From Candidatus Latescibacterota bacterium (GTDB lineage: Bacteria > JAAXHH01 > JABIQT01): DNA of 6,653 bases. Position 1 is the first letter of the stretch. Every line of letters begins with the position of its first letter. The stretch lies in assembly GCA_018667995.1 (NCBI GenBank), contig JABIQT010000262.1:1-6653 (forward strand). The letters run 5' to 3'. The position numbers and the translations under genes are program-made. Below are positions 656 to 6,201 of the stretch, in pieces. The notes below the pieces were generated by a model. The model was not told where the DNA came from. It did not search any database and saw only the letters and a program-made list of their open reading frames with translations.

Positions 656-1597
656 ATGAGAACGGGCGCGAGAACAAAACGCCATATCCACATAGCAAAT
701 GAACAACAAGGCCATAATATGACAATGGACCCCACCAGCTGGTCCAGTTGCTGGTTATTAGGATCCCAGGGACTCCACCAAAGCCGCGACGGATCGGAGT
801 GGAACGAGGTCGGCGCCAGCGGATATCCCGTACAGGATTTGGTGCGCGAAACGGAAAGAGTGCTCTGCGCCACCCTGTGGGGCCTGTGGGAAGTCGGCCA
901 GGCTGAGGCGCCCTGGATTCAGTTGCACGACGAGACTTTGACGGAGGTCCAGAGTATCGTACCCCGCCCCGGTCATCCAGGAGTTGCGGCCGTATCTGCC
1001 TATGGCCTCAGTTTCGGAAACAAGAGCGAACACGGTACGACTCGGTGGATCAGCCACGCAGAGGGGCTGACGCTCAATGAGCGCTTCAGCAATGCGCTAC
1101 TGGCACTCCCGGAATGCGAGGATCAATGGCTCGTGGGCACGGAACAGGGCGTTCTAATCTATGATGAAACGAAAGACCTCTGGCATCGTACAGAATTATC
1201 AGGGCACCCCTGCAGGGCCCTCCTCTTCGTTCACGATAGACTCTGGGCCGGCACCGATGGAAACGGCATCTGGCAGTCCACCGACGGCCACAACTGGAGT
1301 AGAGCTGGTTCCGGTCTCGATGACGAAAGCATCTTCGCATTGGGCGCAACACAGGATCAAATCCTGGCTGGTTCCCTTCGCGGTATCTGCTCAGGTGATG
1401 GTACGTCCAGATGGAGGCGCTCCGGCCCCGCATTACTGGTTTCCGCCATCGGGGCACATCCGGCAAGCGAGGGTCCCTGGCTCGCCGGTGCTACGCCTGG
1501 AGGTCTTTGGCGCAGCGATGATTCCGGGGCACGGTGGCATCAGGTGGGCGACTTCCACACCGTAAGAGTCATTTTACCTCCAGAGGAAACAGCATGA
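656..1597 (+). CDS. Beta-propeller protein with Asp-box (BNR-like) repeats
   Basis: The protein has 313 residues from ATG 656, or 292 from the in-frame ATG at 719. ATG 656 has AGGA at 645-648 (7-nt spacing). ATG 719 has only AAGG at 708-711, but the first 21 residues are basic and do not look like part of the fold, so the start is uncertain. Asp-box-type turns recur: S-R-D-G-S-E-W (residues 43-49), S-T-D-G-H-N-W (208-214) and S-D-D-S-G-A-R-W (287-294), with a weaker G-D-G-T-S-R-W (247-253). Between them are short beta strands of the type L-W-A-G-T and I-L-A-G-S. This pattern is typical of sialidase-like or Ycf48-like six- to seven-bladed propellers. The sialidase Arg triad and a signal peptide were not recognised, so a hydrolase call is not justified; a binding or scaffold role is equally possible. 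The TGA overlaps the next ATG (ATGA), which indicates translational coupling to the 581-residue protein. Confidence 0.8.
   Translation: MRTGARTKRHIHIANEQQGHNMTMDPTSWSSCWLLGSQGLHQSRDGSEWNEVGASGYPVQDLVRETERVLCATLWGLWEVGQAEAPWIQLHDETLTEVQSIVPRPGHPGVAAVSAYGLSFGNKSEHGTTRWISHAEGLTLNERFSNALLALPECEDQWLVGTEQGVLIYDETKDLWHRTELSGHPCRALLFVHDRLWAGTDGNGIWQSTDGHNWSRAGSGLDDESIFALGATQDQILAGSLRGICSGDGTSRWRRSGPALLVSAIGAHPASEGPWLAGATPGGLWRSDDSGARWHQVGDFHTVRVILPPEETA
1594..1597 (+). other. ATGA stop/start overlap (translational coupling)
   Basis: The TGA stop of the propeller gene (1595-1597) shares bases with the ATG start (1594-1596) of the 581-residue gene, with a GAGGA ribosome-binding site at 1583-1587 inside the end of the upstream gene. 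This arrangement normally means one mRNA and coupled translation, and it fixes the start of the downstream gene. Confidence 0.85.
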
Positions 1598-3339
1598 CCG
1601 AATCGGACTACCAGCGTCAAGTCGACACCCGCTCCCGCCAGGCTCTTCAGGCCAGCTTGGAACGGGGTAGTTACCGTTCCTTGTGGGGTTTCCATGCCTC
1701 CCTGGCATGCGGTGGTGATCCTGACGAACTGGTGGAGATAGCCCAGGGGCATCACGAACCGGGTCCCTTCAACATCATTCCTGGTATGTTCCTGCTTGGA
1801 CGCTGGCCGGACCGCATTCCCGCCGAGGCCGAGAAGAGCATCAAGCACATGTTCATGGAGGCTCCCCAGCAGCGAGGGAACACGGAGAATCACTGGCTCA
1901 TGTATTATGCAGGAAATCTGCTCGCAGCGGAGCGGTGGGCGGATGAAGAGACACTCTGGAACGGGCTACCCCCAGCGGCTATGCACGCCGAGGCCAGTCG
2001 ATGGATCCTGGGAATGATCTCACGTACGGCCACCATAGGACACTACGAATACGACTCCACGGGCTATCACAACGAGCACTATGTGCCCTATCTGGCGCTG
2101 GCCGAATACGCCCGGGATCCCTATGTACGACGTCAGGCGCGGCAGATGGTCCATCTACTCCTGGCCGACATGGCAATCGAGTACTTCCATGGCGCCTATG
2201 CGGGCGGTCACAGCCGCGAAGGCAACGTGAATACCTGGACACAGGTCGGGCCGGGTCAGGGCCTCAACTACCTTTACTTTGGTGACGAGGAATTCGACGC
2301 CGACCGGCACTGTCACGGATATGCGATTCCGGCCATCGCTGCTGAATTCCGACCGCCGGCACTGATTGCCCGTATGGCCCTGGATCGAGCCCAACCCCAT
2401 GCGGTGCGCAAGACGAAACCACCACGCGCCATCTACCGGCACGTCAGCGAACCACCTGATCCTGTGCGTAAATATACCTGGATGAGCCGATCCTTCGCCC
2501 TGGGCTCAACGCAAACGGGACTCAACGAAGCGCCAGCAGCACCCATCGACCTGACGTCCTGGGATCTGACATGGCGCGGCCCGAGACACCACGCTAAAAT
2601 CGTCTGTAACCATCCCTACAGGTCGCCGGCCCGTTTCAGTGCATTTCTTCCCGAGTTACCACAGCGCGTGGGTCGTGCCGTGGCCACAGGAAAGCCCTAT
2701 CTCCAAGTGTCGGATCGCCTGTTCGGCGCATCACCCTATGAAAGAATGATGCAGCATGAAGGCGCCATCATTCTGATGTACCAGATACCGGAAGACGACC
2801 TGGCGCCGTACGTCAACTGCTTCCTGCCGAAAACACATACCTGGTGCGAACAGGATGGCTGGATCCTCAGTGATTTCGGCGACTTCTACGTCGGGTTGCG
2901 CATCATAGGGCCATATCGATGGGAGGATATTCACGAATCCGGGCAAGACGGAAACTGGATCGATGGTTGGATGCTGCGGATCAAGGACCTTCACGCCGCC
3001 ATGGTACTGGAGGCTATCGAAGCGGAAGAAGCCGGTTCGTTTCAAAATTTCTGTGATGCCCGGTGCCAGGAGGACCTTGATCTATCCGGTTGGCCAGAGA
3101 ACGGTCTCATAGCCATGGATACGCTTTCAGGCCATCGTCTCGAAATGAATTACGAGGATCATCACACCGTCGATGGCAAGCTCATCGATTATAGCACCTA
3201 TCCACTGTTTGATGGTCCCGGAATCGATGCCCCCACCGATACCGGAAAGATCACATTCCGGCACGGTGATGATAAACTGACGCTCGATTTTGACATCGAC
3301 AGGACTACCGCCGCATTACCTATGCGGGTGATTGGATAG
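1594..3339 (+). CDS. Uncharacterised 581-residue protein, lyase-like (alpha/alpha)-toroid plus beta-domain layout
   Basis: The start is ATG 1594, not the upstream in-frame ATG at 1534: it has GAGGA at 1583-1587 (6-nt spacing) and overlaps the preceding stop as ATGA. I do not recognise a named family. Residues about 1-265 look alpha-helical and rich in aromatic and His residues: T-E-N-H-W (97-101), Y-H-N-E-H-Y (158-163) and G-G-H-S-R-E-G (204-210). From about 290 the sequence turns beta-rich, with many Trp/Tyr/Gly, e.g. G-D-F-Y-V-G-L-R (429-436), Y-R-W-E-D (441-445) and G-W-M-L-R (458-462). This two-part arrangement, with Asn/His/Tyr clusters in the helical half, resembles polysaccharide lyases of the alginate lyase and heparinase II/III type, where Asn, His and Tyr form the active site. 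The comparison is by layout only. No signal peptide is visible, so a cytoplasmic site is likely unless exported otherwise. The coupled propeller gene upstream is the likely functional partner. Confidence 0.85.
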   Translation: MTESDYQRQVDTRSRQALQASLERGSYRSLWGFHASLACGGDPDELVEIAQGHHEPGPFNIIPGMFLLGRWPDRIPAEAEKSIKHMFMEAPQQRGNTENHWLMYYAGNLLAAERWADEETLWNGLPPAAMHAEASRWILGMISRTATIGHYEYDSTGYHNEHYVPYLALAEYARDPYVRRQARQMVHLLLADMAIEYFHGAYAGGHSREGNVNTWTQVGPGQGLNYLYFGDEEFDADRHCHGYAIPAIAAEFRPPALIARMALDRAQPHAVRKTKPPRAIYRHVSEPPDPVRKYTWMSRSFALGSTQTGLNEAPAAPIDLTSWDLTWRGPRHHAKIVCNHPYRSPARFSAFLPELPQRVGRAVATGKPYLQVSDRLFGASPYERMMQHEGAIILMYQIPEDDLAPYVNCFLPKTHTWCEQDGWILSDFGDFYVGLRIIGPYRWEDIHESGQDGNWIDGWMLRIKDLHAAMVLEAIEAEEAGSFQNFCDARCQEDLDLSGWPENGLIAMDTLSGHRLEMNYEDHHTVDGKLIDYSTYPLFDGPGIDAPTDTGKITFRHGDDKLTLDFDIDRTTAALPMRVIG

Positions 3340-3907: not shown

Positions 3908-4492
3908 ACGGGAGGCAGGACCGCGGTAAAAACTGGTATCCAAGATAATAGCTCGAGCCTTCTCACACGTGCGGCGATTCCGCTCGATACGGACGCATTA
4001 GTCTGGAAACGAAGGTTTGATGTACCAGCGGTGAAGGTCTGGCAGACCATCTCTACGAAAGAGGGACTCGAGACATGCTGGATGGTTCGCTCTGAGATTG
4101 AGATTGATCTAAGCGTGGGAGGTCTTTTCAAGCACCACTGGATCAGCACGATTCACGACATCAAGCATGAACGACATATCGTATTTGACGAACCGGAAGG
4201 TGGATGGATGCGATTCCAGGTAGAACCGGATGTTGGAGGAAGCGTCTTCACCTTGATGGTCGTATGACAACAGGGCCTGGATGTACGTCAGCCGAAGCTC
4301 TGGGACGGTACCGCGGGTGGATGGCACGGTGCGGTGGGCGAATTGGAGAAAGCGCTAACAGGTAAGGCTCCTTGCACGCAGTCTCTATCCGAGAATGAGG
4401 GATGGGAACTGGAAGGTAGATTCTATCTCGACTACCTGAAAGATCTGGACCGATTGACTCAAGAGGCGGCCGCCCTTAAGGCGCATCGTTAG
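3908..4492 (+). pseudogene. SRPBCC/AHSA1-like domain gene interrupted by in-frame TGA, no normal start
   Basis: One frame, open from 3908 after a TGA at 3905-3907, reads L-V-W-K-R-R-F-D-V-P-A (3998-4030) and K-V-W-Q-T-I-S (4034-4054), then D-L-S-V-G-G-L-F (4109-4132). This is the usual opening of Aha1/START-like SRPBCC proteins, which bind hydrophobic ligands or act as Hsp90-cochaperone-like folds. At 4265-4267 a TGA interrupts it, yet the same frame continues without shift into G-W-H-G-A-V-G-E-L-E-K-A-L (4319-4357), the expected C-terminal helix of the family, and a further tail to TAG 4490-4492. No ATG or TTG precedes the conserved start within the open part, and the only GTG (4031) would delete the first strand. 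The nearest in-frame ATG (3842) is cut off by the TGA at 3905. A decayed gene is the simplest reading. A sequencing error, or readthrough, is possible. Codon 4265-4267 would be CGA (Arg) after one C-to-T change. Confidence 0.65.
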
Positions 4493-4563: not shown

Positions 4564-5325
4564 ATGAACCCTTCCCTGAGGCTGATTCTTTTCTGCCATG
4601 CTCGAAGCGGCAGCACGAGCCTTTGCAGAATGCTGAACCTGCATCCACAACTGAACATTCTGGAAGAACCGCTCAGCGAGGATTTTACCAAATGGCATCC
4701 CGAGGAGAGAGATTACGCCGAACTCATCAACGACATCGATTCACTTAATGAGCAGATGGATCATATCTTTAGCCGATACAATGGCATCAAGGTGCTTCAT
4801 TTTGAGCTCCGACCACCGCGTTTTATCTACCTATTGGGACTACCGGCCTACACCGTAATATTCCTCAGACGGCGTAATCTACTGCAGACCGTAGTGTCCA
4901 GCGAACTGGCCGAACAAAGCACAAAATGGACCATCGGAGATCTTGAACGTCCCATTGCCGAGACCTACGCAGATCTCAAACCGCTCTCGATCGAACAGGT
5001 TCAAGGCCAGATGGAGGCCTTGCAGCGTGAACTCGAACTCTTTGATGCGGTAATCTCGCACAGGCCGGCAGGAACTTATCTCAAACTGTGGTATGAGGAT
5101 CTGTACATGGTGCCTGCGGATAAGCGACTGGCAACGGTGGGCAGCATTTGCCGTTTTCTGGAACTGGCCCCAATCGATGACGAGCAGATCCACGCATATC
5201 TCGACCCGTCAGAAGCCAAAATGAACAATGCGAGTACGTACCGCCTCATACCGAATGCCCATGAGATAGACCAACAGTTGGGTAGTGATGCGACAGGCTG
5301 GCTGTTCGACCAGAACGCGAATTGA
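4564..5325 (+). CDS. PAPS-dependent sulfotransferase-like protein
   Basis: The protein has 253 residues; ATG 4564 is preceded by AGGA at 4554-4557 (6-nt spacing). The N-terminus goes straight into beta strand 1 and the 5'-phosphosulfate loop, C-H-A-R-S-G-S-T-S-L at residues 11-20. The 3'-phosphate site is the strand and helix V-I-F-L-R-R-R-N (98-105) followed by S112/S113. L-E-E-P-L (33-37) occupies the place where Stf0-like enzymes carry a Glu near the acceptor, and Y-E-D-L (177-180) is the usual late family motif. Length is normal for small bacterial sulfotransferases. Family knowledge: transfer of sulfonate from PAPS to a hydroxyl (or amine) of a sugar, lipid or small molecule in the cytoplasm. 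The acceptor cannot be inferred. The gene follows the broken SRPBCC frame by 71 nt and precedes the dioxygenase by 72 nt in the same direction; a shared transcript is possible but not shown. Confidence 0.88.
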   Translation: MNPSLRLILFCHARSGSTSLCRMLNLHPQLNILEEPLSEDFTKWHPEERDYAELINDIDSLNEQMDHIFSRYNGIKVLHFELRPPRFIYLLGLPAYTVIFLRRRNLLQTVVSSELAEQSTKWTIGDLERPIAETYADLKPLSIEQVQGQMEALQRELELFDAVISHRPAGTYLKLWYEDLYMVPADKRLATVGSICRFLELAPIDDEQIHAYLDPSEAKMNNASTYRLIPNAHEIDQQLGSDATGWLFDQNAN

Positions 5326-5397: not shown

Positions 5398-6201
5398 ATG
5401 AAATTAGGACCTTCAGAGATCGAGAACGGGGTGCTGTCGGCGGAGCACCTGGAATTGGCTCTGCGAAGCTTGAATGAGGTCGGATATATCGTCCTCGAGA
5501 ACATACTACCAGACGACCTCGTCGCATCTCTGAATCAGGGGTTTGAGATGGAATTCGAGAGACGGATGGCCGAATGCAAAGAGGAGTTGGCGAAGGTAGA
5601 AGGGCACAAGGGGATCGGGATTCCTTTCGAGCAACCATTCATGGACCCTATGATAATCGCAAATCCTCTCGCGCTTCAAATCATCGGTTCAGCAATGGGC
5701 CCCGACAGCTTCTCTTTTCTTCCCTATCATAGCAATACCGCATGGCCGGATTCTGGCGTGCAGCATATCCACCGCGATACCAGACATCTCTTTCCTGATA
5801 CGACCAATGTGCTTCCCCCCACGCTGGTCGTGGTCAATATACCCCTCATAGATTTTACCATAGAGAACGGCGCCACTGAGGTATGGCCGGGCACGCACCG
5901 CATTCTTGATTCCGATCCCTCTGGGGACGAGCACGCATGCAGTGAGGAGCGTGCCGCACAGATGCCGTCTCTGCAAACCGTAATGCCGGCCGGTTCGATC
6001 GTGGTGCGCGACATGCGCATGTGGCATCGGGGCATGCCCAACGGGACTAGTCAGCGCCGTTCCATGGTTGCCCTGGTGGTGTATCACGCGCTTCACAATC
6101 AGGCGAGGCTGGAACGAAATACACCAATACCAAAATCTGTCTGGGAGTCACTACCAGACCAGGGCCGGAATCTATACCGATTTCAACCTGTTGGGGCGTA
6201 G
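5398..6201 (+). CDS. Phytanoyl-CoA dioxygenase (PhyH) family Fe(II)/2-oxoglutarate oxygenase
   Basis: The protein has 267 residues from ATG 5398, with GGAG at 5383-5386 (11-nt spacing, somewhat long). The double-stranded beta-helix landmarks are complete: H-R-D at residues 125-127 (His125 and Asp127 as Fe(II) ligands), N-G-A-T-E-V-W-P-G-T-H at 157-167 (the typical PhyH core segment), the distal iron ligand His210 in M-W-H-R-G-M-P-N (208-215), and Arg221, eleven residues further on, as the likely 2-oxoglutarate carboxylate anchor. The N-terminal part (G-Y-I-V-L-E-N at 29-35) also fits the family. The enzyme is therefore predicted active: hydroxylation or another oxidation coupled to decarboxylation of 2-oxoglutarate to succinate. 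The family includes phytanoyl-CoA, ectoine and many natural-product oxygenases, and the substrate here is unknown. No signal peptide is seen. The 106 nt after its stop hold nothing supportable. Confidence 0.93.
   Translation: MKLGPSEIENGVLSAEHLELALRSLNEVGYIVLENILPDDLVASLNQGFEMEFERRMAECKEELAKVEGHKGIGIPFEQPFMDPMIIANPLALQIIGSAMGPDSFSFLPYHSNTAWPDSGVQHIHRDTRHLFPDTTNVLPPTLVVVNIPLIDFTIENGATEVWPGTHRILDSDPSGDEHACSEERAAQMPSLQTVMPAGSIVVRDMRMWHRGMPNGTSQRRSMVALVVYHALHNQARLERNTPIPKSVWESLPDQGRNLYRFQPVGA

Follow-up and report, generated by a model that had tools for sequence, protein, structure and literature searches.

A toroid-lyase-like enzyme family and its Asp-box propeller: a predicted two-subunit uronate-glycan lyase in Latescibacterota and other bacteria

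The window analysed here, a complete contig of 6653 bases (C40) that is one piece of a fragmented 6.06-Mb metagenome-assembled genome, carries a pair of genes that probably encode (with a likelihood of about 0.6 by our estimate) a two-subunit uronate-glycan lyase, in which a toroid enzyme of a new family would be made by coupled translation with a dedicated beta-propeller. The computational evidence comprises the fold, the conserved residues, the pairing, the co-inheritance and the matched localisation signals of the two proteins, from which we infer the catalysis, the class of substrate, the role of the propeller and, on genetic grounds only, a physical complex between enzyme and propeller. 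Polysaccharide lyases with the toroid fold are usually reported as the products of single genes, and a literature search for a described lyase–propeller pair found none among the papers searched. What is new is a family within a known superfamily together with an unusual obligate partner, the lyase activity and the complex being predicted only. If the family is indeed hardly ever found without a propeller of its own, through changes of both gene order and compartment, then it would represent an obligate two-component lyase, and Pfam and NCBIfam would be overlooking enzymes in Latescibacterota, Verrucomicrobiota, Acidobacteriota and other groups.

Layout of the gene pair

The two genes lie on the forward strand and share an ATGA stop/start overlap at 1594..1597. 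A ribosome-binding-site-like AGAGGA that would serve the enzyme gene sits inside the propeller gene at 1582..1587, ending six bases 5' of the enzyme ATG, so that both the overlap and the internal ribosome-binding site described in an earlier sequence-only reading are present. The enzyme gene (1594..3339) encodes 581 amino acids and lacks a signal peptide. The first gene had been given as 656–1597, and an open reading frame of 313 amino acids does open at 656, but its start is more likely the ATG at 719 or 725, since residues 1 to 21–23 have no counterpart in relatives and are modelled with a pLDDT under 50. The 5' extension (656..718) is accordingly probably untranslated, and the propeller gene is taken as 719..1597 on the basis of homologues, the model and the Asp-box residues.

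The overlap is more than a chance curiosity: the genome holds a further copy of the pair (C451), 54% identical and with the identical type of overlap, and among relatives 43 of 73 scored pairs have a four-base xTGA overlap. Where the propeller gene is downstream, 21/24 pairs overlap in this way (20 ATGA and one TTGA), and where it is upstream there are 16 ATGA and 6 GTGA/TTGA overlaps. Shared ancestry partly accounts for this wide occurrence. Coupled translation would ensure that both proteins are made together and in the same compartment.

Fold and conserved residues of the enzyme

The proposal that the 581-residue protein combines a lyase-like alpha toroid with a beta sandwich was borne out by structure prediction and by two kinds of structural comparison. 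The AlphaFold2 model, for which 40 homologues were supplied (pLDDT 89.8, pTM 0.92), has 13 helices within residues 3–263 followed by a beta-rich half (269–565), which places an alpha/alpha toroid domain at about 1600..2382 and an antiparallel beta-sandwich domain at about 2398..3288. PL5, PL12, PL15 and PL17 lyases had been named as the structures to compare, and the best PDB matches all belong to the toroid-lyase superfamily: the 18 best from Foldseek, with E values between 1.5e-5 and 1.4e-3, consist entirely of toroid polysaccharide lyases and dermatan sulfate epimerase, including PL33 BT4410, human dermatan sulfate epimerase, GAGase VII, exo-heparinase, heparinase II, alginate lyase Atu3025 and another chondroitinase. 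VIA structural comparison gave Z scores of 10.7 for GAGase VII (PL35) and 10.6 for a PL8 hyaluronate lyase over 419–432 residues, 9.9 for human dermatan sulfate epimerase and 9.4 for heparinase III, with aligned lengths of roughly 380–465 residues among the matches listed. TM-scores against known lyases over both domains were low (0.31–0.41), which suggests that the enzyme is distantly related to them and that its two domains may be set at another angle.

Neither the single enzyme sequence nor its 40-member profile gave a sequence match in Pfam, NCBIfam or the PDB. The family likewise showed no significant sequence or profile match to Pfam Hepar_II_III_C, other Pfam families or PL families with solved structures, and its comparison with heparinase II/III-like proteins by hhalign was not significant (probability about 1%). 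Since the model matches the toroid-lyase fold yet the sequence matches none of these collections, the enzyme is predicted to constitute an undescribed family within the superfamily of polysaccharide lyases built from an alpha/alpha toroid and an antiparallel beta sandwich, which takes in PL8, 12, 15, 17, 21, 33, 35 and 39. Both proteins had been assigned to unrecognised families; this holds for the enzyme and fails for the propeller, relatives of which match Asp-box, sortilin and YCF48 models.

Residues invariant in 70 paired enzymes are R13, F59, R94, G95, T97, E98, N99, H100, G149, E152, Y158, D175, R208, R278, R282, G304, W323, P341, S380 and Q387. Among 13 much more divergent Opitutae proteins, here called ‘bridge’ homologues (E 1e-28 to 1e-75), N99, E152, Y158 and R208 are again invariant (13/13), position 100 is H or Y, and R94, R278 and R282 vary. 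The candidate active-site residues thus fall in a T97-E98-N99-H100-W101 motif (1882..1896), an E152-x2-S155-x2-Y158 motif (2047..2067) and R208 (2215..2217). The Asn/His/Tyr clusters picked out beforehand at residues 97–101, 158–163 and 204–210 hold the invariant T97–H100, Y158 and R208, and far from being scattered they show the strongest conservation in the family and stand at the N-termini of successive toroid helices. In the model N99/H100, Y158 and R208 sit at, or immediately ahead of, the N-termini of helices 98–114, 159–172 and 222–229, and because these are the ends of every second helix, the residues probably share one face of the toroid, judging by helix boundaries rather than coordinates. 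The enzyme would cleave uronic-acid-containing oligo- or polysaccharides by beta-elimination, with N99 and H100 neutralising the uronate carboxylate, Y158 acting as base and/or acid on the C5 hydrogen and the leaving oxygen, and R208 binding the substrate.

PL35 GAGases II and VII have the same toroid and beta sandwich with a corresponding toroid Asn/Tyr (Asn192/Tyr246 in GAGase II), and GAGase VII is the best VIA match to the enzyme (rmsd 5.9 over 419 residues). PL35 differs in having no sequence similarity and in its beta-domain His401, which has no strictly conserved counterpart in the enzyme; to our knowledge PL35 lyases have no propeller partner. The beta-domain catalytic His of most classical families, from which the PL8 AC type is an exception, is similarly without a strictly conserved equivalent in the enzyme family, the nearest candidate, H340, being Q or N in some members. 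The 59 residues that separate the conserved N99 and Y158 fall within the range of about 53–59 of known families, since the Asn (or His) neutraliser precedes the Tyr by 53–57 residues in most of them and by 59 (Asn183–Tyr242 in 1RWA) in PL8 chondroitin AC lyase (PMC12088678 Table 4), and active-site arginines are also used by PL8 (PMC8733870). PL8 hyaluronate lyases match the fold as well (Z 10.0–10.6), but the catalytic His of PL8 lies 9 residues before the Tyr, where the enzyme has the invariant E152, whereas the His of the enzyme (H100) follows the Asn, and the sequences do not match. PL33 BT4410 and human dermatan sulfate epimerase, the top two Foldseek matches, have the two-domain fold in common with the enzyme and differ from it in sequence (8–12% identity, no profile link) and in gene context.

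The propeller and its pairing with the enzyme

The partner is predicted to be a seven-bladed Asp-box propeller of the sortilin/YCF48/GH74-like kind. Its model (pLDDT 90.6) matches seven-bladed proteins with Z 24–27, repeated S-x-D-x-G-x-x-W boxes are evident from model, profile and conserved residues, and the family profile matches GH74 xyloglucanases, sortilins (Vps10 domain), YCF48/HCF136 and BNR proteins (3e-25 to 1e-9). Pfam Sortilin-Vps10, PSII_BNR and BNR were matched by 14–16 of 31 propeller members, and the window's own propeller had no Pfam match at E 1. Compared with those Asp-box propellers the partner is a single seven-bladed domain, without conserved catalytic residues and nearly always paired with the lyase-like gene. 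As invariance across 70 propellers is limited to Gly, Trp and Asp-box Ser residues, a structural or binding function suggests itself; no invariant polar catalytic-type residue was found among the 70, which may set them apart from PL22-type catalytic propeller lyases, the mark of which is conserved metal-binding and catalytic residues. The proposed role is that of a dedicated partner without catalysis of its own, binding to the enzyme and probably also to the glycan.

Searches covering the phylum, genome contigs and the class to which an Opitutae genome belongs yielded 80 non-redundant full-length enzymes, 68 of which are well flanked (>1 kb on both sides). Counting a propeller as paired when within 300 bases on the same strand, 63 of these 68 loci have one beside the enzyme, 41 upstream and 22 downstream, and the five well-flanked enzymes without one are L032, three tandem copies in L053, and L102. 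The organism labels of the loci, which can be wrong for metagenome-assembled genomes, include Latescibacterota, Gemmatimonadetes, Spirochaetes, Bryobacterales, Rhodothermales, Kryptonia and Opitutales/Opitutaceae/Puniceicoccaceae. The pairing, for which conservation across genomes had been set as the check, is therefore near-obligate and spans several phyla rather than being an adjacency peculiar to this genome, and that the propeller stayed beside the enzyme across many bacterial groups suggests that the pair works as one unit. The propeller-downstream order occurs mainly in one Opitutales clade, which would fit a change of gene order. Across 70 pairs the tree distance matrices of enzyme and propeller correlate with r = 0.96 (maximum 0.14 in 1000 permutations); such mirrored trees indicate common inheritance of the pair rather than proving contact, since adjacent genes are inherited together and would correlate highly even without it.

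Operon partners need not form complexes, and the two genes could instead be co-regulated neighbours whose products do not touch, the propeller being an independent binding protein or enzyme; the few enzymes that lack an adjacent propeller would fit such an arrangement. We regard it as rather unlikely, given immediate adjacency that is near-universal and has survived a reversal of gene order, signal peptides that match, mirrored trees and a propeller without invariant catalytic-type residues.

The bridge homologues had no propeller in the 1–1.5 kb of flank inspected, and scanning them against Pfam for a link to a named family gave no match. The deeper set of homologues (L119–L131) is propeller-free in the inspected flanks, and the ten of them scanned against Pfam gave no match; they are possibly further undescribed lyase families. 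Lyase-family frames in L094, L119 and L120 have one internal stop codon inside the match. Plasmid collections yielded four weak partial matches, three of them in haloarchaeal Haladaptatus and labelled hypothetical protein, and phage collections yielded no match. The enzyme gene lies on contigs of several megabases in genomes G051, G108, G112, G120 and G144, which suggests that cultured carriers may exist, in which the pair could be tested.

Localisation, genomic context and possible substrates

A scan for N-terminal hydrophobic stretches showed that the two proteins of a pair agree, either both or neither having a signal peptide. L031 and L039 seem discordant in this crude scan, but their enzymes do show a hydrophobic N-terminus in the alignment. 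In the window's branch neither protein has such a stretch, in agreement with the sequence-only reading, and we assume that the window pair is cytoplasmic. Most divergent relatives appear to be secreted and the signal-peptide-free state belongs to one branch, so the proposed unit would operate in the cytoplasm in the window's branch and in the periplasm or at the cell surface in most divergent relatives. A cytoplasmic lyase-like enzyme with its own propeller had been flagged as unusual. This stands for the obligate propeller partner; the location by itself is less unusual, because cytoplasmic toroid lyases such as the oligo-alginate lyases already exist.

Four Opitutae loci (L041, L144, L145 and L146) contain a syntenic operon of a GH78-like rhamnosidase, DUF6807, a class V aminotransferase (undetected in L145), the propeller, the lyase, an M28 peptidase and an SSF symporter, with an S51 peptidase in L041 and L144; the operon extends over 2080–13985 in L041, 2504–14889 in L144 and 3715–13663 in L145. 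Three other loci (L043, L046 and L051) have a heparinase II/III-like protein near the pair. These contexts would suit the degradation of a glycan that is acidic and possibly rich in rhamnose, and the peptidases and aminotransferases nearby raise the possibility of amino-acid decoration of the glycan. Published work describes Latescibacteria as breaking down algal polyuronides and annotates PL6, PL12, PL15, PL17 and PL21 in them (PMC4454575). More tentatively, at clearly lower odds than the two-subunit lyase itself, the Asp-box propeller would be the obligate partner of the new toroid-lyase family, the two having acted as one unit through changes of gene order and compartment on an acidic, rhamnose-bearing and possibly amino-acid-bearing glycan.

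Two further readings concern the reaction and the substrate, and we consider each of them a little less probable than neighbours without contact. The enzyme could be a polymer-acting uronate C5-epimerase comparable to dermatan sulfate epimerase, with the propeller presenting the chain to it: the human enzyme is the second-best Foldseek match (E 1.6e-5; VIA Z 9.9), and epimerases and lyases of the toroid fold have a common Tyr/His arrangement. The rhamnosidase and sodium:solute symporter of the Opitutae operon fit breakdown and uptake better than they fit polymer remodelling. Alternatively, at similar odds, the lyase could act on a glycan or glycoconjugate bearing amino-acid or peptide groups, the pair being part of a system that strips both, as might be read from the M28 peptidase that adjoins the lyase in L041-type operons and is near the pair in L028-type loci, from the S51 peptidase of the L041-type operon and from the class V and III aminotransferases near several pairs. 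This association is found in some clades only, there is no such gene beside the window pair, and many neighbours of the pair in Latescibacterota are housekeeping genes.

A link to sugar-acid catabolism through a mandelate-racemase/enolase-superfamily gene, which many Latescibacterota genomes have at 2–5 kb from the enzyme gene, was given little weight since there are 33–56 such genes per genome (in G000 and order relatives) and the loci share synteny. In the closest relatives a 2-oxoglutarate (2OG-Fe(II)) oxygenase gene (L018 9746–10774; L019 5543–6544) shares one base with the end of the lyase gene, and the window has no such gene directly beside its lyase gene.

Around the pair, the window opens with a class D beta-lactamase-like gene that is cut by the contig start, so that its 3' part remains (2–652; NCBIfam bla_class_D_main, 231 bits against a cut-off of 250); it ends 3 bases before the start codon at 656. 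Downstream are an AHSA1-like fragment (4031–4490) that may be a decayed or frameshifted gene, its frame being broken by a TGA near 4265–4267, a sulfotransferase (4564–5325), a phytanoyl-CoA dioxygenase family protein (5398–6201) and, from 6302 (region to 6652), the start of a glyoxalase/bleomycin-binding-like gene.
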